Assembly (NCBI GenBank): GCA_016794825.1
Contig: JAEUJH010000748.1
Coordinates: 1 to 32,059, forward strand
Direction: 5' to 3'
DNA length: 32,059 nt
DNA from: Gemmatimonadota bacterium
GTDB lineage: Bacteria > Gemmatimonadota > Gemmatimonadetes > Gemmatimonadales > GWC2-71-9
Shown here: positions 21,568 to 32,059 of the stretch, piece by piece
How the letters are laid out: each line of letters opens with the position of its first letter
Position numbering within the stretch: the stretch's first letter is position 1
The notes under the pieces: model-generated
What the model was told of the DNA's origin: nothing
The model's database searches: none
The model's input: only the letters and a program-made list of their open reading frames with translations
Translations under genes and position numbers: made by a program

Positions 21568-21597
21568 AAAATAGCCGGGGACCGGAGCCTCCGGCTA
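21568..21597 (-). terminator. Rho-independent terminator overlapping the SPOR gene stop codon
   Basis: Read on the minus strand, TAGCCGG, whose TAG is the stop codon, pairs with CCGGCTA twelve bases later and is followed at once by TTTT. This separates the rpsF operon from smc, which must then depend on read-through or its own promoter in the 80-base gap. Confidence 0.65.
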
Positions 21598-23052
21598 CTG
21601 CTTGATCGGGGGATTGGTGAGGATGAAATACGGCCGGCCGAGCTTCCGGCCGGTTTCTTCGGCCGCCTCCCGGGTGGCGTAGGGACCGACCACCACCCGG
21701 TAGCCCTCGTCGGCCGACCCGGGGTCGAGGACCTGGGCGGGGTAGCCGGCCGTGGTCAGTTGCTTGGCGTATTCCCGCGACCACTCCGCGTTCTGGGAGC
21801 TGCTGACCTGGAGGAAGATCCGGTCGGTGGTGGGCGCCACGGCCTGGGAGTCGGCCACCAGGAGGCTGTCCTGGGCCACCAGGATCGACTCGGCCGCCGC
21901 CACGGCCCTCGTCAGTCGCTCCTTGGGCAGCCAGGGGGTGACGACCCACAGATCGGCCGCTCCGCCGACGATCCGGCCCAGTTCGGGGTGGTCGGGCTGC
22001 CCGAGGCCGACCGTCACCAGGTCGCCGCGCCGCCGAGTGACCAGGGTCGCGGCCCCCGCCACCGTGGGGAGGTCGTCGTCCCATTCGGTGTCGGCCGTCA
22101 TGACCAGCCGCCCGGTGGCCAGGTCCACCACCCAGGCGCTGTCGCCGTCGGCGGGCCGGGCCAGGAGCCACCGCCCGGACTGATCGGTCCGAAGCCGTCG
22201 CGGCACTCCAGGCAACTCCAGGGTGGCGAGGCGGTCGAGGGCGTAGCGGTCGATCACCTCGATCGACTGGTCGTCGTGCGCCAGGTAGATCCGGTGGCCG
22301 GACGGGCTGAAGACGATGTGCCGCACGGGGGCACCCGCCTCGAAGCTCCGGGTCGGAAACGGATCCTCGGTCTGGAACAGCACGACCTCGCGCCCCTTGG
22401 CCACCGCCACCTGGTCGCCCCAATAGGTCGCGGCTGGCTCGCCATCGGGTGCGTCGAGGCTGGCGAGCTGCCGCTCGGCGCCGAGGATCAGGAGCCGCCG
22501 CGGCTTGGTGCCGAGGACGGCGATGTACCGGTCGCCGAGGGTTCCGGTATGGAAGACCGGCGCCACCGGCAGCGGGGGACGATAGAGGGTCGGCAGGCCG
22601 GCCTGGAGCCGGCTGACTCGGCGGGCGGCGTTGACCGTGAACACCGAGCCGTCGGCGACCATGACCGCCGCTTCGATCCCGGTGGCCTGGGTGCGGATGC
22701 CCCGGGATTCGAGGTCGACGGTAAAGAGGTTCTTGGCGGTGTCGACGGCGAACAGGAGACGGGTTTCGGCGCTGACGCCGAGGACCTCGCGGATCCGAGG
22801 CGCCTCGGTCCGGCTGGTCCAGATCGGCTCGCCGAGGCTGTCCGGATCGTAGGCCTCGACCAGGCCTCCGTGCCGCGGGACTCGGAGGAGTGATACCTGA
22901 CCGCCGACCGCGGGAAGGTCGGGCGGGAGCTCGGCGCCCCGGCCGGGGCACCCGGCCAAAAGCACGAGGCCCGCGACCAGCGAACCGAGCGTGGTCGCGG
23001 GCCTCGAAATCGAACGAGAGATCAGAAGGTCGGTCCGAGACTGATCGTCCAC
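21595..23052 (-). CDS. Lipoprotein with beta-propeller-like repeats and C-terminal SPOR domain
   Basis: From a GTG at 23052 the protein has 485 residues; the first 31 bases overlap the end of the Omp85 fusion gene. The N-terminus is a lipoprotein signal with lipobox LLAGC (Cys at about 35). The middle (about 50-380) has repeated strands like a WD40/YVTN propeller (FSPSGHRIYLAHDDQSIEV, LRTDQSGRWLLARP). The C-terminal 75 residues form a SPOR domain (IFLQVSSSQNAEWSREYAKQL ... GYRVVVGPYATREAAEETGRKL). SPOR domains bind glycan strands stripped of stem peptides, usually at the division septum. A structural or scaffolding wall role is likely. Confidence 0.85.
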   Translation of the reverse strand: MDDQSRTDLLISRSISRPATTLGSLVAGLVLLAGCPGRGAELPPDLPAVGGQVSLLRVPRHGGLVEAYDPDSLGEPIWTSRTEAPRIREVLGVSAETRLLFAVDTAKNLFTVDLESRGIRTQATGIEAAVMVADGSVFTVNAARRVSRLQAGLPTLYRPPLPVAPVFHTGTLGDRYIAVLGTKPRRLLILGAERQLASLDAPDGEPAATYWGDQVAVAKGREVVLFQTEDPFPTRSFEAGAPVRHIVFSPSGHRIYLAHDDQSIEVIDRYALDRLATLELPGVPRRLRTDQSGRWLLARPADGDSAWVVDLATGRLVMTADTEWDDDLPTVAGAATLVTRRRGDLVTVGLGQPDHPELGRIVGGAADLWVVTPWLPKERLTRAVAAAESILVAQDSLLVADSQAVAPTTDRIFLQVSSSQNAEWSREYAKQLTTAGYPAQVLDPGSADEGYRVVVGPYATREAAEETGRKLGRPYFILTNPPIKQ

Positions 23053-26000
23053 ACCCCACCCACGCCGGAGCGTTGCAGCGGTCGCGCGTAGTCGAGCCGG
23101 AGGATCACGAAATTAAGGAGATTGGCGCGGATCCCCAAGCCGACGCTGGTCAGCGGGGTTCGCACGCAGCCGCCCACCGACTTGCCGGTCTGGGGGTCGA
23201 AACTGCAGGGCGTCGCATCGGAGCGATTGAGCCGGACCGACATCCCATCTTCCCAGAACACGCCCGCGTCGAAGAAGGCCGCGGCCTCGATGGCCCCGGG
23301 GAAGCCGCGGAGCGGAATGAATCCGAGTCCGGCCGCGATCAACGGGAAGCGGAGTTCGGCGTTGAAGACCGCCGCCCGGGTCCCGATCAGCTCGTCGAAG
23401 GCCGAGCACCCGCTGAACGACTGGGCGTCGGTGCCCTCGATGCACTCGTTCCGCCGGAACGACCCCGCCGTGTAGCCGCGGATCAGTTCGGTGTTGCCGC
23501 CGTAGAAGCGGAACCGCGACTCGTCCCGGCCCATCCGGCCGACGAACATGGCGCGGGTCGCGAACGTCACGTTGCCGGCGACGCGGTCGTAGCGCCGGCT
23601 GTCGGCCGTGACGGAGGTGAACCGCCAGCCCTGACCGAACACCTCGAGGTTCTGACTCACCGCGAACCGGGCTCGACGCCCGAGGAACGGGCCCACGTAG
23701 GCGGACAGCGAGTTGTCGTAGACGTAGGCCAGCGAGGGCTGGACGTAGGTGATGTTCTCGAGGTTGGTGGTTTCGAGGGTCGGATCCCGGCTCAGGGTAC
23801 CGCTCCCGATGAAGAACGGCTCCCGGATCTGGAGCAGGTCGTCGCTGATGTTGGCCAGCGACGCCGAGGCCTCGATTCGGGCAAACCGGCTGAACGGGTA
23901 GTATCCGCTGGCCGACACGTCCCGGATCACCAGCCGCCGGATGTTGGTGACGTAGGTGTTTTCCTGGGCCGTCGGTCCGGGCTCGATCGACGAGTAGTCG
24001 TAGAAGAAGTACGGCATCTGCGACACGCCGATGCCCCAGTTGAGGCGCCGACTGAGGTTGATGTACTGCGCCAGGAACTGGGTTTCCGGCAGCCGGCCGT
24101 TGAGCGAGGCCCCGACGATCATCTGCTGGTTCGACAGCATGTCGCCGAGGACGATCGTGGCCGACCCGGTGACGCCGCGGCCGAAGTTGTCGCGGACGTA
24201 GCCGATCGTGGGGCGGGCGACGTACTCGGGCTCGAACTTGGCCTTGTACGGCTTGTGGACGAAGTCGACGGTGTCCGGCGGCCGGATCTCGGTCGAATCG
24301 AGGAGCTTGGCGATGGTGACCGGCGCCGGCAGCTTGAGCGAATCCGGCACTGGCGGGAGCGAGTCCGTCCGTCGGAACCCGGCGGGTCCGCGGTAGATCG
24401 ACGTCGACCGGAGGATCTCGGGCGGCTTCGGGGTCGTGGTCGTGTCGACCGCCGGCAGGGGCCGGGGCCCGGGAATCGGGGTGGCCTGGACGAGGACCTG
24501 GGGCCGCGGCGCCTGGCCGGAGCGCCAGGGCTCCTTCTTGAGGGACCGCGGATTGGGCATCGTGTAGACGTCGTACTGGCCCTGCTCGAAGTACACGAAC
24601 GCAACCCGATCCGATCCCCGCGACCACGACAGCACGGGCGAGAGCGGGGTGATGCCCTGGATCCCGGTATAGAAGTCGGTCAGCTGATAGATCTGGCGGT
24701 CCGCCAGATCGAACAGGAACAGGTTGGCCACGTTGTCGCGATCGGAGACGAACGCGATCGACTTGCCGTCCGGCGCCCACTGAGGGCTGGAATTGCGCCC
24801 CTCCTCCATCCCGGGGAGCACCTCGATCCGCCCGTCATCGAGATGATAGAGCGCGATGCGGAGATCGCTCCACTTGAGCTCGTCGAAGTTGGTCTCGGGG
24901 CCGCGATCAGTCGCGAAGGCGATCGTCTTCCCGTCCGGCGACCAGACCGGGTGCATGTCGGCGAACTTGTCGTTCGTGAGCCGCCGGAGATCGGTGCCGT
25001 CGATGTTGATCGTGAACAGATCAGACAGGCCGCCGTCGAGCCCGGTAAAGACCAGCCGCTTGCCGTCGGGGCTGAACGTCGGGGTCGTCACGCCGCTCAG
25101 CGGAACGGTAATGCGCCGGATCTGCTTGTTGCGTTCGGGGTCGACCAGGACGATGTCGTCCTTCCCGCTTCGCTTGGCCGCGAAGGCGAGCATCTTCCCG
25201 TCTTCCGACCACGCCGACGATGACGAGATGTAGCGGAAGGTCTCGTAGTTGCTGCCGTAGCTCGATTTGAGGAGCCGTCGGATCGGCTTCCCGGTGGTCC
25301 CGTCGGCCAGCCACAGGTCGACGAAGAAGAAGTCCTTTTCGCTGAAGTAGGCCACCCGCGACCCGTCGGGCGAGAGCGCCGGGGCCAGGTGCCAGGTGCC
25401 CTCCGAGAGCTTCTCGGTCAGCAACGGCTGCGAGACCGCGCGGGCCTTGACCCGATTGCCGATTTCCGGCAGGTACTGTCGGGTGACCGCGTCGCGCCAC
25501 TGCTCGACCAGTTGCTCGAAGTTCATCCCCAGCACCCGCCGGAGCGCGAGGTCGAGCCCGCCGCCCACGGCGTTCTTGGTGATGGCGCCAATGGCCTCGT
25601 CGCCCCAGCGCTGGCCGATGTAGGTGATGAGGGCGTGGCCGAACTGGTAGGGGAAGACGGTCAGGAAATCGCGCGCGGTCGGCAGCTTGCCCTCGAGGGC
25701 GCCGTCCCGAAGCCACATGGCGGTCTTGGAATCGACCGGTCCGAGCGAGAAGTACTCCGACATGCCCTCGCCGAACCAGAGCGGCGCGTTGGCGGAGATG
25801 ATGCCCTGGATCCCGGCTCCGCCGCGGCCCCGCGACCAGATGTCGAACTGGAACTGGTGCACCATTTCGTGCGCCAGGACGTGCTCGTTGTCGGCGTACG
25901 ATCCGGACAGCGGGAAGGTGTTCCGGTGGCGGAGGAAGTCGGTAAAGCCGCCCGTGCCTTCGTCGACGTCGCCGCCGCCCAGGTTGGTCTGCTGGAAATC

Positions 26001-26270
26001 GCTGTGCGAGGCGTAGAGGATGATCGGCTTGCGGTCCTCGAACTCGTGGTTCAGGACCCGGGAAAGCCGGGCATAGGAACGTTCGGCCAGCCGGGCGATG
26101 TCCATCGCGGCGGCCCGTTCCTCGGGGTAGTAGTAGACGTCGAAGTGCTCGGTCTGAACGATCCGGAAATCGAACCGGCCGTACTGGACCCGGTTCCGCC
26201 CGAAGTACTGGGCGGCCAGGGCCGACGGCAGCAGGATCGCGGCGAGGAGCGCTAGCAGGAGTCGACGCAT
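23022..26270 (-). CDS. Outer-membrane fusion: HExxH peptidase-like domain, TolB-like propeller and Omp85 barrel
   Basis: The 1082-residue protein starts with a signal peptide (MRRLLLALLAAILLPSALAA). Residues 30-290 look like a gluzincin (peptidase MA type): HEMVH (134-138) and a third ligand E168 in WFGEGMSEYF, spaced HExxH-x29-E. Residues 290-600 hold about six TolB/PD40 repeats (FSPDGKRLVFTG, WSPDGKTIAFATDR, WAPDGKSIAFVSDR). A proline-rich linker follows. From about 690 to the end is an Omp85/BamA barrel, with the lid-loop motif IRGY (930-933) and a C-terminal phenylalanine (WTISLGPTF). No POTRA domain is visible. It starts three bases after the rsfS stop. It should sit in the outer membrane with the peptidase and propeller in the periplasm or outside; orientation and substrate are unknown. 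Confidence 0.9.
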   Translation of the reverse strand: MRRLLLALLAAILLPSALAAQYFGRNRVQYGRFDFRIVQTEHFDVYYYPEERAAAMDIARLAERSYARLSRVLNHEFEDRKPIILYASHSDFQQTNLGGGDVDEGTGGFTDFLRHRNTFPLSGSYADNEHVLAHEMVHQFQFDIWSRGRGGAGIQGIISANAPLWFGEGMSEYFSLGPVDSKTAMWLRDGALEGKLPTARDFLTVFPYQFGHALITYIGQRWGDEAIGAITKNAVGGGLDLALRRVLGMNFEQLVEQWRDAVTRQYLPEIGNRVKARAVSQPLLTEKLSEGTWHLAPALSPDGSRVAYFSEKDFFFVDLWLADGTTGKPIRRLLKSSYGSNYETFRYISSSSAWSEDGKMLAFAAKRSGKDDIVLVDPERNKQIRRITVPLSGVTTPTFSPDGKRLVFTGLDGGLSDLFTINIDGTDLRRLTNDKFADMHPVWSPDGKTIAFATDRGPETNFDELKWSDLRIALYHLDDGRIEVLPGMEEGRNSSPQWAPDGKSIAFVSDRDNVANLFLFDLADRQIYQLTDFYTGIQGITPLSPVLSWSRGSDRVAFVYFEQGQYDVYTMPNPRSLKKEPWRSGQAPRPQVLVQATPIPGPRPLPAVDTTTTPKPPEILRSTSIYRGPAGFRRTDSLPPVPDSLKLPAPVTIAKLLDSTEIRPPDTVDFVHKPYKAKFEPEYVARPTIGYVRDNFGRGVTGSATIVLGDMLSNQQMIVGASLNGRLPETQFLAQYINLSRRLNWGIGVSQMPYFFYDYSSIEPGPTAQENTYVTNIRRLVIRDVSASGYYPFSRFARIEASASLANISDDLLQIREPFFIGSGTLSRDPTLETTNLENITYVQPSLAYVYDNSLSAYVGPFLGRRARFAVSQNLEVFGQGWRFTSVTADSRRYDRVAGNVTFATRAMFVGRMGRDESRFRFYGGNTELIRGYTAGSFRRNECIEGTDAQSFSGCSAFDELIGTRAAVFNAELRFPLIAAGLGFIPLRGFPGAIEAAAFFDAGVFWEDGMSVRLNRSDATPCSFDPQTGKSVGGCVRTPLTSVGLGIRANLLNFVILRLDYARPLQRSGVGGVWTISLGPTF

Positions 26271-26273
26271 GGT

Positions 26274-26681
26274 TCAGACCTTTCGTTCGGGCGTCGGCGC
26301 GTAGGCGACGGCGGGCGCGTCGTTCCAGAGCCGCTCGAGCTGGTAGAACGCCCGGGCCTCCGGATGAAACACGTGGACGACGAAGTCGACGAAGTCGAGC
26401 AGGGCCCAGCGACCGCTCTGGAGTCCCTCGACGTGGTGCGCGTGGATCCCGAGCCGTCCCAACCGGTCGAGGACCGCGTCGGCAATGCCCCGGACGTGGG
26501 CGTCCGAGGTGCCCGAGGCGACGACGAAGAAGTCGGCCGCGTCGGACAGACCGCGGAGGTCGAGCGCCACCAGGTCGCGCGCCTTCCGGTCGTCGGCCGC
26601 GTCGAGCGCCGCCGTGATGGCCGGGGGAATGGCGGCCCGGGCTTTGGGCGACGCCGGTCGGGTGGTCCGGTCAGCCTTCAC
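26274..26681 (-). CDS. rsfS: Ribosomal silencing factor RsfS
   Basis: The 135-residue protein begins at a GTG at 26681, with GAGG seven bases upstream, and overlaps the end of the FakAB fusion by 11 bases. The core DLVALDLRGLSDAADFFVVASG, GRWALLDFVDFVVHVFHPEARAFYQLERLW is the RsfS (DUF143) fold. RsfS binds L14 and blocks 50S-30S joining in starvation. The family start is normally nearer the core, so about 25 N-terminal residues are an extension. Location behind a set of ribosomal protein genes fits the role. Confidence 0.93.
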   Translation of the reverse strand: MKADRTTRPASPKARAAIPPAITAALDAADDRKARDLVALDLRGLSDAADFFVVASGTSDAHVRGIADAVLDRLGRLGIHAHHVEGLQSGRWALLDFVDFVVHVFHPEARAFYQLERLWNDAPAVAYAPTPERKV

Positions 26682-28488
26682 TCGAATCCTCGACTTGATA
26701 GAACACGGCCCAGGCGCCGACTCCGGCGTGGGTTCCGAGCACACCGGTGGCCAGGGCCACGAAACAGTCCCGGGGTCGGTACGCGGCGACCAGCGCCGTT
26801 CGGAGCCGTTCGGCCACCTCGGGCGCCTCGGCGTGCACGATGCCGAACCGGAGGGCCTTGGGGCGGGGCGTGAGGGCCCGGTCGACCAGCTGGAGGACCC
26901 GGGCAACCAGCGACTCCCGGCCGCGAACCCGGTCGACCGGGATGATCCGTCCGGCGCCGTCGAGAGACAGGATTGGCTTGACGTCGAGCATCCCCGCCAG
27001 CCACGCCTTGCCTCTCGATACGCGGCCGGATCGCAAAAGGTTCTCATAAGTATCGACTGTCAAGAACAGGCCGGAACGGGCCCGAATCCTTTCCAGTTCC
27101 GTGACAATCGCTTTTGCGCCCCACCCTGACTCGGCCAGCTCCACCGCCCGCAGGGCCAACATTCCGAGCCCGAGCGACGCCGATCGGCTGTCGACCAGAT
27201 GGACGTTGGTCAGGTTTCCGGCCTTGACCGCCGCCTGCCCGGCTTGAAACGTACCCGAGACGCCGCTCGAAAGCAGAACCGCCACCACCTCGTCGGCCTC
27301 GACCGTCGCGGATCGGAACACCCGGACGAAGTCGCCCGGCGTGGGCTGGGAGGTCGTCGGCAGCTGCCGGGTGGCCCGGAGGAGCCGGTAGAACTCCTCG
27401 GGCTTGAGGCCGAGGCGGTCCTGGTAGGTGGTGTCGCCGAAGGTGACCTGGAGGGGCACCATCGCGATCCGGTGCCGGTCGAGGATCGAGTCGGCGAGGT
27501 CGGCCGAGGAGTCGACCACGATGGCCACCGGCCGGCGGGTGGCATGCGACAGGGCCCGGTGCTGGGCCCGCATGTCGTCGGCTTTGCGGAAGGTGACCGT
27601 GCCCCACCGCTCACCCAGGGCAAAGACGGCTTCCGGCGTGTCGGTGTGGACGTGGAGCTTGAGGATGTCGCCCACCTGGGCCACGACCACGGACCCGCCG
27701 AACTGGTGGAGGGCCAGGCGGACTTCGTTCGAGCTCGGCAGCTGCTCGCCCCGGATCAGGCACTCGGTGCAGAACTGGTAGTCGCGCTCGGCGGCGACCG
27801 TGAAATCGGCCGCGGCGCTGTGCTCGCCAGTGGTCCCGGTCGACGGCGCGGCCGGGAGAATCGGATCGCCCCGGATCAGCCGGACGACGCCCTCGAGCAT
27901 CCGGACGAACCCCTTGCCGCCGGCGTCCACCACGCCGGCTTCGCGGAGGACCGCCAGCAGGGTGGGGGTTCGGGCCAGGGCGGCCTCGCCCTCCGCGAGC
28001 ATCCGGCGCATGAAGGCGCCGAAGTCCCGCGTTTCGGCCGCGGCCCGCTCGGCCGCCTCGGCGGCGTCGCGGGCGACCGTCAGGATGGTGCCTTCCCGCG
28101 GCTCGTCGAGCGACGCATACAGGGTGTCGGCGCCGCGGCGGATGGCCTGGGCGACGGCGGGGGCGTCGGCGGTGGGGCGGTCGCCGATCGCGTCGGCAAA
28201 GCCGAGGAGGAAGTGGGCGAGCATCATCCCGGAATTGCCGCGGGCGCCCAGAACGGCGGCCCGGGCGGCGGTCCGGGCGGTCTCGCCTAACGGCGCGTCG
28301 CCGAGCGCCTGGAGGGCGTCGGCGACGGCGCGGAGCGTGAGACTGAAGTTGGTGCCGGTGTCGCCGTCGGGGACCGGAAAGACGTTGAGCCGGTTGATCT
28401 CGTCGCGGCCGGCCTGGACCCAGTCGGCGGCCGCGTACATGGACCGGGCCAGTCGCGGCCCATCCACGTACGCGATTCCGATGCCCAT
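26671..28488 (-). CDS. Fused fatty acid kinase: FakA-type DhaL and middle domains joined to a FakB-type DegV domain
   Basis: The 605-residue protein joins two partners that are separate in Firmicutes. Residues 1-200 are a DhaL (Dak2) nucleotide-binding domain with NVFPVPDGDTGTN (35-47), GARGNSGMM and VVDAGGKGF. About 230-310 match the FakA middle domain, with a Cys pair (C240, C243) and HVHTDTP (H279, H281), likely zinc ligands. From about 320 a DegV domain has VVDSSADL, TTSQPTPGDF (378-387) and LLSSGVSGTF, the fatty-acid binding loops of FakB. FakA phosphorylates fatty acids bound by FakB for lipid synthesis. Here the acyl phosphate would be made in one chain. The gene starts four bases after rplI. 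Confidence 0.9.
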   Translation of the reverse strand: MGIGIAYVDGPRLARSMYAAADWVQAGRDEINRLNVFPVPDGDTGTNFSLTLRAVADALQALGDAPLGETARTAARAAVLGARGNSGMMLAHFLLGFADAIGDRPTADAPAVAQAIRRGADTLYASLDEPREGTILTVARDAAEAAERAAAETRDFGAFMRRMLAEGEAALARTPTLLAVLREAGVVDAGGKGFVRMLEGVVRLIRGDPILPAAPSTGTTGEHSAAADFTVAAERDYQFCTECLIRGEQLPSSNEVRLALHQFGGSVVVAQVGDILKLHVHTDTPEAVFALGERWGTVTFRKADDMRAQHRALSHATRRPVAIVVDSSADLADSILDRHRIAMVPLQVTFGDTTYQDRLGLKPEEFYRLLRATRQLPTTSQPTPGDFVRVFRSATVEADEVVAVLLSSGVSGTFQAGQAAVKAGNLTNVHLVDSRSASLGLGMLALRAVELAESGWGAKAIVTELERIRARSGLFLTVDTYENLLRSGRVSRGKAWLAGMLDVKPILSLDGAGRIIPVDRVRGRESLVARVLQLVDRALTPRPKALRFGIVHAEAPEVAERLRTALVAAYRPRDCFVALATGVLGTHAGVGAWAVFYQVEDSSEG

Positions 28489-30512: not shown

Positions 30513-30541
30513 AACCTAGCTCGCGAGCGGGTTTACGTCAA
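30513..30541 (-). promoter_or_regulatory. Candidate promoter of the rpsF operon
   Basis: On the minus strand TTGACG (30541-30536), a 17-base spacer and TAGGTT (30518-30513) form a near-consensus sigma-70 promoter, giving a leader of about 70 bases. The spacer contains a perfect ten-base palindrome, GCTCGCGAGC (30519-30528), which could be an operator. Confidence 0.6.
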
Positions 30542-30561
30542 CCGGCCCCGGCGGCTAAGAT
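30532..30561 (+). promoter_or_regulatory. Candidate promoter of the MOSC gene, leaderless
   Basis: TTTACG (30532-30537), an 18-base spacer and TAAGAT (30556-30561) lie directly before the MOSC gene. The start codon begins six bases after the -10 box, so transcription would start at or near the A of ATG, giving a leaderless message. No Shine-Dalgarno is visible. Confidence 0.5.
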
Positions 30562-30567
30562 TAGGGC

Positions 30568-31224
30568 ATGCGAATCGAATCGATCCAGACCGGGCAACCC
30601 CGGACCCTCGGCCGCGCGGACGCGGAGGACCCGATGGAGCGAACCTGGACCAGCGCCATCGCCAAGGAGCCGGTCGAGGGACGCCTCTGGACCGGCCACG
30701 AAGGCCTGAGCGGCGACAGCCAGGTCAATCGGAAGGTCCATGGGGGGCCGGAGCGGGCGCTCCTCCTGTACTGCGCGGCCCACTACCCCAGGTGGCGGGC
30801 CGAGTGGGGCTCGAAGGACCTCGGCCCCGGCGGATTTGGCGAGAATCTGACCGTGTCGGGGCTCGACGAGACCACGGTGTGCGTCGGCGACATGTTCCAG
30901 GTCGGCGACCTCCGGCTGGAAGTCTCCGGACCCCGGGAGCCGTGCCTCAACCTGGTGCGTCGGCACCGGCGCCCCGAGCTGATCGACCGGGTCGTGGCCA
31001 CCGGTCGGAGCGGCTGGTATGTCCGGGTGTTGAACGAAGGATGGCTGGAGAAGGGTCTGCCAATCACGCTGCTCGACCGGCCCTATCCCCAGTGGCCGAT
31101 TGCCCGAGCCGCCACCGTCAAGCGCGAACGGACCAGCCGGCCGGAAGAGGCCGCGCTCCTGGCGTCGTGCCCCGCGCTGCTGGCGGACTGGCGGGCCCGG
31201 TTGGCCGGCACCCCTACACGTTGA
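30568..31224 (+). CDS. MOSC domain protein (YiiM-like)
   Basis: The 218-residue protein matches the YiiM group: RKVHGGPERALLLYCAAHYP, GGFGENLTVSGLDE, and the conserved cysteine C126 in SGPREPCLNL that in MOSC domains carries sulfur or binds molybdenum cofactor. YiiM-type proteins reduce N-hydroxylated compounds or handle sulfur for metal cofactors. A short helical tail follows the MOSC domain. Its stop lies inside the 3' end of ychF on the opposite strand (11-base convergent overlap). No molybdenum enzyme is in view. Confidence 0.9.
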   Translation: MRIESIQTGQPRTLGRADAEDPMERTWTSAIAKEPVEGRLWTGHEGLSGDSQVNRKVHGGPERALLLYCAAHYPRWRAEWGSKDLGPGGFGENLTVSGLDETTVCVGDMFQVGDLRLEVSGPREPCLNLVRRHRRPELIDRVVATGRSGWYVRVLNEGWLEKGLPITLLDRPYPQWPIARAATVKRERTSRPEEAALLASCPALLADWRARLAGTPTR

Positions 31225-32059
31225 AGCGAAAGAGGAGGACGTCGCCATCCTGGACCACGTACTCCTTGCCTTCGGAGCGGACCAGACCTTGCTCCCGCGC
31301 TGGTTTCCACCCGCCCACCCGCACGAAGTCGTCGAACGCCACCGTCTCCGCCCGGATGAAGCCCCGTTCGAAGTCGGTGTGGATCACCGCCGCAGCCTGA
31401 GGCGCCCGGTCGCCCCGATGGATGGTCCAGGCCCGGACCTCTTTCTCGCCGGCGGTGAAGTAGCTCTGTAATCCGAGCAGATGGTAGGCCGCCCGGGCCA
31501 ATCGATCGAGCCCGGATTCGTGCAGGCCGAGCGAGTCGAGGAAGTCCTTGCGGTCCTCGGGGGCCAACTCGGCCAGTTCCATCTCGACCCGGGCCGAGAA
31601 CAGGACCACCTCGGCCTCCTCGCCCGACGCGGTGATGGCGGCCTGGAGGGCGGCGACGTGGGCGTTGCCGGTGTTGAGGTCCGCCTCGCCGACGTTGGCG
31701 GCGTACAGCACCGGCTTGGCGGTGAGGAGGTTGAACTGGCGGAAGGTCGGCAACTCCTCGGCCGTCGGCACCACCGTCCGGGCCGGCTGGCCACGAGAGA
31801 GGGCATCCTTGACCGCTTCGAGGAGGCGGGCCTCGACCTTGGCCTGGGCGTCGCCGGAGCGAGCGGTGCGGACGGCCTTGTCGAGCCGTTTCTCCACCCC
31901 GGCGAGGTCGGCCAGTCCCAGCTCCAGGTTGATCACGTCGCGGTCGCGGACCGGATCGACCGATCCCATGACGTGCTGGATGTCGTCGTCCTCGAAGCAC
32001 CGGATGACGTGGACGATGGCATCGACTTCCCGGATGTTGGCCAGGAACTGGTTCCCGAG
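31214..32059 (-). CDS. ychF: Redox-regulated/ribosome-binding ATPase YchF, 5' end outside the window
   Basis: The last 281 residues are visible and the frame is open to the window edge. They run from the G domain (LGNQFLANIREVDAIVHVIRC, DPVRDRDVINLELGLADL) through the coiled-coil insert to the TGS domain (FDDFVRVGGW, YVVQDGDVLLFRFNV). The P-loop lies beyond the edge. YchF is an Obg-family protein that prefers ATP and binds ribosomes. About 80 residues of the usual 363 are missing. Confidence 0.96.
   Translation of the reverse strand, partial: LGNQFLANIREVDAIVHVIRCFEDDDIQHVMGSVDPVRDRDVINLELGLADLAGVEKRLDKAVRTARSGDAQAKVEARLLEAVKDALSRGQPARTVVPTAEELPTFRQFNLLTAKPVLYAANVGEADLNTGNAHVAALQAAITASGEEAEVVLFSARVEMELAELAPEDRKDFLDSLGLHESGLDRLARAAYHLLGLQSYFTAGEKEVRAWTIHRGDRAPQAAAVIHTDFERGFIRAETVAFDDFVRVGGWKPAREQGLVRSEGKEYVVQDGDVLLFRFNV

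Follow-up and report, generated by a model that had tools for sequence, protein, structure and literature searches.

A gene on the minus strand of the window (the whole 32,059-nucleotide stretch of Gemmatimonadota DNA analysed here) encodes a 1082-residue protein that joins, in one chain, a signal peptide, a gluzincin-type peptidase domain, a TolB-like beta-propeller, a disordered linker, and an Omp85-type barrel in which the usual POTRA domains were not detected. The peptidase is probably active, as judged from its residues, and relatives occur almost throughout the phylum. Our tentative proposal is that the protein may serve as an outer-membrane-anchored zinc peptidase.

Domain architecture of the protein

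The open reading frame (23022 to 26270, minus strand) starts with ATG, and the N terminus of the deduced protein is hydrophobic, as it also is in homologues. An AlphaFold model of the chain, built with 57 homologues, had a pLDDT of 83.9 and a pTM of 0.79. The features of the gene are as follows, with window coordinates first.

23022 to 26270, minus strand: whole gene, running from the signal peptide through peptidase, propeller, and linker to the barrel
26211 to 26270, minus strand: Sec-type signal peptide, residues 1 to 20 (MRRLLLALLAAILLPSALAA), from sequence
25446 to 26207, minus strand: gluzincin-type peptidase domain, about residues 22 to 275, from Foldseek and profile matches
25857 to 25871, minus strand: HEMVH, predicted zinc-binding and catalytic motif, residues 134 to 138; H134, E135, and H138 the same in 57/57 homologues
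25767 to 25769, minus strand: E168, predicted third zinc ligand (HExxH-x29-E), the same in 57/57
25647 to 25649, minus strand: Y208, likely transition-state tyrosine, the same in 57/57 and aligned with the collagenase tyrosine
24555 to 25430, minus strand: TolB-like beta-propeller of about six blades, residues 281 to 572, from PD40 and Foldseek TolB matches
24330 to 24497, minus strand: disordered proline-rich linker, residues 592 to 647, pLDDT below 50
23025 to 24209, minus strand: Omp85-type barrel of about 16 strands, residues 688 to 1082, C-terminal residue aromatic, from the model, Foldseek, and PF01103
23472 to 23483, minus strand: IRGY lid motif, residues 930 to 933, in the loop between strands 11 and 12, aligned with BamA VRGF; R931 and G932 in 57/57
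23406 to 23444, minus strand: cysteine pair C943/C955 of the lid loop (54/57 and 55/57), aligned with the BamA lid-loop cysteine region
23343 to 23357, minus strand: ELRFP, residues 972 to 976, on strand 12; E972, R974, and P976 in 57/57
23262 to 23276, minus strand: FFDAG (FxDxG), residues 999 to 1003, on strand 13; D1001 and G1003 in 57/57

Residue conservation was assessed across 57 homologues with identity down to 34%. Twelve positions were invariant (57/57), namely H134, E135, H138, E168, and Y208 in the N-terminal domain and R931, G932, E972, R974, P976, D1001, and G1003 in the barrel. The strong constraint on both ends of the protein makes it unlikely that the enzyme is dead or the barrel decayed. 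A chance motif or a fusion of open reading frames was ruled out by the presence of stop-free full-length homologues throughout Gemmatimonadota, and we regard the domain anatomy as well supported.

The initial annotation, made from the sequence alone, had described a peptidase, a propeller, and a POTRA-less Omp85 barrel with an IRGY motif in one chain, had proposed a zinc site at the HExxH, and had suggested predicting the structure of the whole chain. Sequence and model bear out this arrangement, with the whole-chain model matching both TolB and BamA. The predicted zinc site lies in a gluzincin-like fold whose catalytic residues are complete, and the Omp85 character of the C terminus is upheld by the model, the BamA matches in Foldseek, and PF01103.

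The N-terminal domain resembles gluzincin peptidases

When the N-terminal domain was modelled alone, the top 50 Foldseek matches were all gluzincins of clan MA(E) (M1/M9/M61), the best having a probability of 1.0 with a modest E value of 3.6e-3. The sequence profile of the domain matched the microbial collagenase 7wss (E value of 7e-4), with the Glu-Gly motif in register together with a tyrosine 44 residues on, corresponding to Y208. In the Grimontia collagenase Ghcol, Glu520 and Tyr564 have the same 44-residue spacing, and the Y564A substitution impairs catalysis (PMC9304777). The HExxH and the downstream glutamate zinc ligand of clan MA(E) gluzincins were present in 57/57 homologues and in all intact relatives. 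The HExxH was kept by every intact N-terminal domain among more than 200 homologous open reading frames, a count that includes divergent Acidobacteriota frames retrieved with a profile, independently of the motif.

In Pfam searches the domain fell under the cut-off of every curated peptidase family. The window protein scored 16 bits against a cut-off of 32.4 for Peptidase_MA_2 and 15 bits against 23.8 for BSP, and M9 matches were obtained with other members of the family but none with the window protein. With the M9 collagenases and BSP/Peptidase_MA_2 it shares the gluzincin core, the HExxH...E...Y order, and the active-site tyrosine, but it is under all of these family cut-offs and lacks the collagenase activator domain. 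As predicted from sequence and model, the domain is a gluzincin fold with a full set of catalytic residues. Because these residues are invariant in 57/57 homologues and the HExxH is found in all intact relatives, the domain appears to be an active enzyme under selection. A pseudo-enzyme was rejected because the active site is invariant, and the zinc peptidase is probably active.

Propeller and Omp85 barrel

The propeller was matched by PD40 in five stretches (Pfam, E value of 2.3e-31), the AlphaFold model has about six blades between residues 281 and 572, and Foldseek matched the full model to TolB with an E value of 3e-11. The protein thus shares the propeller fold and PD40 repeats with TolB, but it is far under the TolB cut-off (TIGR02800, 124.5 bits against 343), and its relatives hold a separate TolB-like gene. 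Replacement of TolB was ruled out, as TolB-like and Pal genes are paired elsewhere in the genomes of relatives and Pal is present in the genome from which the window comes. A PD40 protein encoded on C646 was also considered as TolB and rejected; its gene adjoins a signal-peptidase-like gene, with no recognizable Tol cluster.

Foldseek matched the barrel to BamA with E values of about 4e-9 to 3e-8 and a TM score to the isolated E. coli barrel of up to 0.58. In a profile search of the genome PF01103 scored 52.5 bits, over the cut-off, whereas the family was absent from the hmmscan output for the window protein by itself, a discrepancy between tools; when homologous barrels were matched one by one, 20 of the 26 hit PF01103. 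A profile of the barrel family matched BamA 5or1 (E value of 4.4e-5) and the POTRA-domain protein 9ccg (E value of 2.6e-5), and against BamA the RGY, cysteine-pair, E-x-x-x-P, and FxDxG regions were in register. The RGY in the loop between strands 11 and 12, the ELRFP on strand 12, and the FxDxG on strand 13 follow the Omp85 layout. The protein has the hallmarks of the superfamily, namely a homologous barrel of about 16 strands, (V/I)RG(F/Y) in loop 6, and FxDxG on strand 13. In 36/57 homologues the whole chain contains only two cysteines. Pfam searches of the window protein found no POTRA match and, unlike in PlpD-type Omp85 proteins, no patatin domain; the BamA model likewise gave no match to it.

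Gene order around the barrel gene

The genes of the window all lie on the minus strand in the order ychF, orf236, rpsF, rpsR, DUF2232, rplI, a Dak2/DegV fusion, rsfS, the barrel gene, SPOR, and smc. The immediate neighbours are as follows.

26274 to 26676, minus strand: rsfS (RsfS E value of 3.6e-30), 5' end not fixed
21595 to 23052, minus strand: SPOR lipoprotein gene with lipobox LLAGC and a C-terminal SPOR domain (E value of 9e-9), start codon not fixed

The ATG of the barrel gene is 3 nt past the rsfS stop, and the SPOR gene may overlap the barrel gene in the window, an overlap that is seen in some loci. The placement behind ribosomal genes and before a SPOR lipoprotein given in the initial annotation stands, but its gene list had omitted DUF2232 and the Dak2/DegV gene. 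Among operon-type Gemmatimonadota loci with enough flanking sequence, a set in which a few genomes are present twice, rsfS immediately preceded the barrel gene in 73/73, and SPOR immediately followed it in 66/67. A second, free-standing form of the gene has no widely common neighbours, and no SPOR neighbour of the free copies was detected. In a FastTree phylogeny the operon and free forms were largely separate, and with a midpoint root the free form, to which the Acidobacteriota copies belong, was nested among operon forms (the tree row L066 is a free form).

In other families the barrel gene lies elsewhere, and the interval between rsfS and smc (L270 to L281) is empty or holds one SPOR gene or, in L281, two. 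The barrel gene is missing from this locus with SPOR kept in L273, L274, and L281, while both are missing in L275, L277, and L279, where smc follows rsfS and no SPOR match was found. An obligate pairing with the SPOR gene, which was also considered, is weakened by its persistence without the barrel gene in some lineages. Because some lineages keep SPOR alone and others have neither gene, the SPOR partner is frequent without being required. The operon is not needed for function, since the gene lies outside it in many relatives and in entire lineages. Judging from gene order, expression of the barrel gene may be linked to growth; a promoter scan of the operon gave nothing usable.

SPOR domains bind septal glycan strands, and this, together with the adjoining and in some loci overlapping SPOR gene, would suit a tether or division module in which the propeller binds the SPOR lipoprotein as TolB binds Pal, joining the outer membrane to septal peptidoglycan. 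We consider such a module improbable: TolB-like and Pal pairs are present separately, SPOR genes outlast the departure of the barrel gene in L273, L274, and L281, free copies lack a detected SPOR gene, and the invariant active site would be left unexplained.

Several other observations were made in this region. The SPOR lipoprotein gave weak beta-propeller matches ahead of its SPOR domain, and the two adjoining genes, barrel and SPOR, may both carry propellers. The 605-residue Dak2/DegV protein (26671 to 28488, minus strand) has a DAK2/FakA-like kinase part fused to a DegV (FakB-like) part; FakA-like and FakB-like parts are normally separate subunits of fatty-acid kinase, and the fusion is found at this position in only some related loci. 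The product of orf236 (30538 to 31248, minus strand), between ychF and rpsF, matched nothing in Pfam or NCBIfam and appears to be fast-evolving, with 52% identity to its counterpart in L120, where most neighbouring genes exceed 90%.

Distribution of the family

Stop-free relatives at an E value of 1e-60 or lower were found in 197/200 Gemmatimonadota genomes. The best unrelated PD40 protein of the same genome as the window reached only 1.5e-17, so matches at this threshold are not due to the propeller alone. Two of the three Gemmatimonadota genomes without such a match still hold a very distant relative, and many genomes hold multiple copies. Beyond the phylum, the N-terminal domain was found in 48/99 Acidobacteriota genomes, mostly in frames of 930 to 1100 residues. 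Members also occur in Latescibacterota and Aminicenantes, where the loci were found via the HExxH motif, which is thus not independent evidence in that set. A Salinibacter plasmid relative of 633 residues has the peptidase and propeller with no barrel match. On this plasmid, pSR116 of Salinibacter ruber (L178, 5908 to 9725), the barrel-less gene is followed by one matching serine carboxypeptidase S10, possibly a split or alternative arrangement. It was the only plasmid-borne relative found, and no match to viruses or phages was found.

Relationship to BamA and other known proteins

BamA is encoded separately in the same genome, by L051, which exceeds the TIGR03303 cut-off of 297 with 395 bits. 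L050 encodes another Omp85 protein that has POTRA; it is of the BamA/TamA type and under the cut-offs. Co-occurrence with BamA, a check proposed in the initial annotation, is found in the organism itself, and replacement of BamA is ruled out by the presence of these two proteins. Two other large open reading frames of the genome, L053 (C406) and L056 (C447), end in Omp85-type barrels and begin with about 500 residues that have no Pfam family or POTRA match.

The closest published description is that of Heinz and Lithgow in 2014, whose main text defines a WD40-Omp85 subfamily, in which a TolB-like propeller is present and POTRA is lacking, and a separate 'Metallo' subfamily with a PF00149 domain (PMC4104836). 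With its N-terminal TolB-like propeller, Omp85 barrel, and lack of POTRA, the window protein fits the WD40-Omp85 subfamily by this description. It differs in adding an N-terminal gluzincin, which is absent from that main text, and in being phylum-wide in Gemmatimonadota, whereas most additional subfamilies are reported there as conserved at genus level only (PMC4104836). Of the earlier suggestion of an undescribed system, the fused peptidase stands as an addition to that main text, but the WD40-Omp85 part had been described in 2014 (PMC4104836). In the literature searched, we found no other paper that names the gluzincin-propeller-Omp85 architecture and no experimental study of the function of the protein.

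The initial annotation had envisaged a one-chain machine in which the peptidase cuts dedicated substrates that the barrel then inserts or translocates. Conservation of the lid-lock residues (RGY, ELRxP, FxDxG) and of the lid cysteines matches that of functional insertases and translocases, and could reflect active insertion or translocation instead of anchoring. A default role in protein assembly was proposed for all Omp85 subfamilies by Heinz and Lithgow (PMC4104836). Processing followed by insertion nevertheless seems to us unlikely for a protein without POTRA, in a cell that already has BamA as well as another Omp85 protein with POTRA, and whose free-standing copies have no conserved adjoining substrate gene.

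PlpD of Pseudomonas aeruginosa, a patatin-Omp85 protein, likewise joins an enzyme domain to the N-terminal side of an Omp85 barrel, but it is a patatin lipase with POTRA and has no propeller or peptidase. Its enzyme domain stays in the periplasm (PMC11116518). The failure of the equivalent idea for PlpD bears on whether the barrel might display the peptidase and propeller on the cell surface, or release them there, to act as an extracellular enzyme, as do the housekeeping operon and near-universal presence, which do not suggest a nutrient enzyme, and the need to pass folded domains through a barrel that retains its lid. Self-secretion is doubtful on these grounds, even though the disordered, proline-rich stretch joining propeller to barrel resembles a passenger linker, the peptidase is weakly similar to secreted collagenase and basic secretory peptidases, many genomes have multiple copies, and Salinibacter has a barrel-less version.

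The nearest precedent in function is BepA, a zinc peptidase that acts on LptD bound to BAM, where it brings about either maturation or degradation of a barrel protein (PMC8423444). The likeness that we propose is that of a periplasmic HExxH zinc peptidase at the site of outer-membrane barrel assembly; BepA is a separate soluble M48 protein without barrel or propeller, and the comparison is by analogy, not homology.

Proposed function

We propose, tentatively and by analogy, that the protein may be a periplasmic zinc peptidase, anchored in the outer membrane, that carries out quality control or maturation of barrels, a self-contained counterpart of BepA on an Omp85 scaffold. We rank this reading first, ahead of processing followed by insertion, then self-secretion, and lastly the SPOR-linked tether. 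Throughout, the step from anatomy to function is one that we infer. Omp85 barrels have periplasmic N termini and, as the PlpD enzyme domain is periplasmic, the peptidase and propeller are expected to lie in the periplasm under the barrel. The barrel would place the protein in the outer membrane and anchor both N-terminal domains on the periplasmic side, where they would be kept as the PlpD enzyme domain is. The propeller may present substrates to the peptidase or gate their access, and the peptidase would trim or degrade envelope or outer-membrane proteins. The likeliest substrates would be assembling or misassembled barrel proteins, as with BepA on BAM, handled here by one chain. A housekeeping enzyme that works on its own would be consistent with the phylum-wide core distribution and with free copies that have no widely conserved neighbours.

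A more ambitious reading, which we judge unlikely, is that of a phylum-defining outer-membrane machine in one chain, in which the propeller would recognise a substrate, the peptidase would cut it, and the barrel would insert or pass it. Such a machine would work alongside BAM and be expressed together with genes for the ribosome and for chromosome segregation.

Significance

Omp85 proteins build outer membranes, and to our knowledge nearly all that has been learned of them comes from POTRA-bearing members. The family described here appears, from its sequences, to be a POTRA-less Omp85 protein fused to a probably active zinc peptidase and kept phylum-wide in Gemmatimonadota and in about half of the sampled Acidobacteriota genomes. 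If it acts in quality control, it would be a protease built into a barrel scaffold; if it inserts substrates, insertion would be coupled to cutting. The invariant catalytic and lid residues offer clean point mutants with which the two readings could be told apart. Should the one-chain machine prove true, proteolytic maturation would be coupled to outer-membrane assembly.
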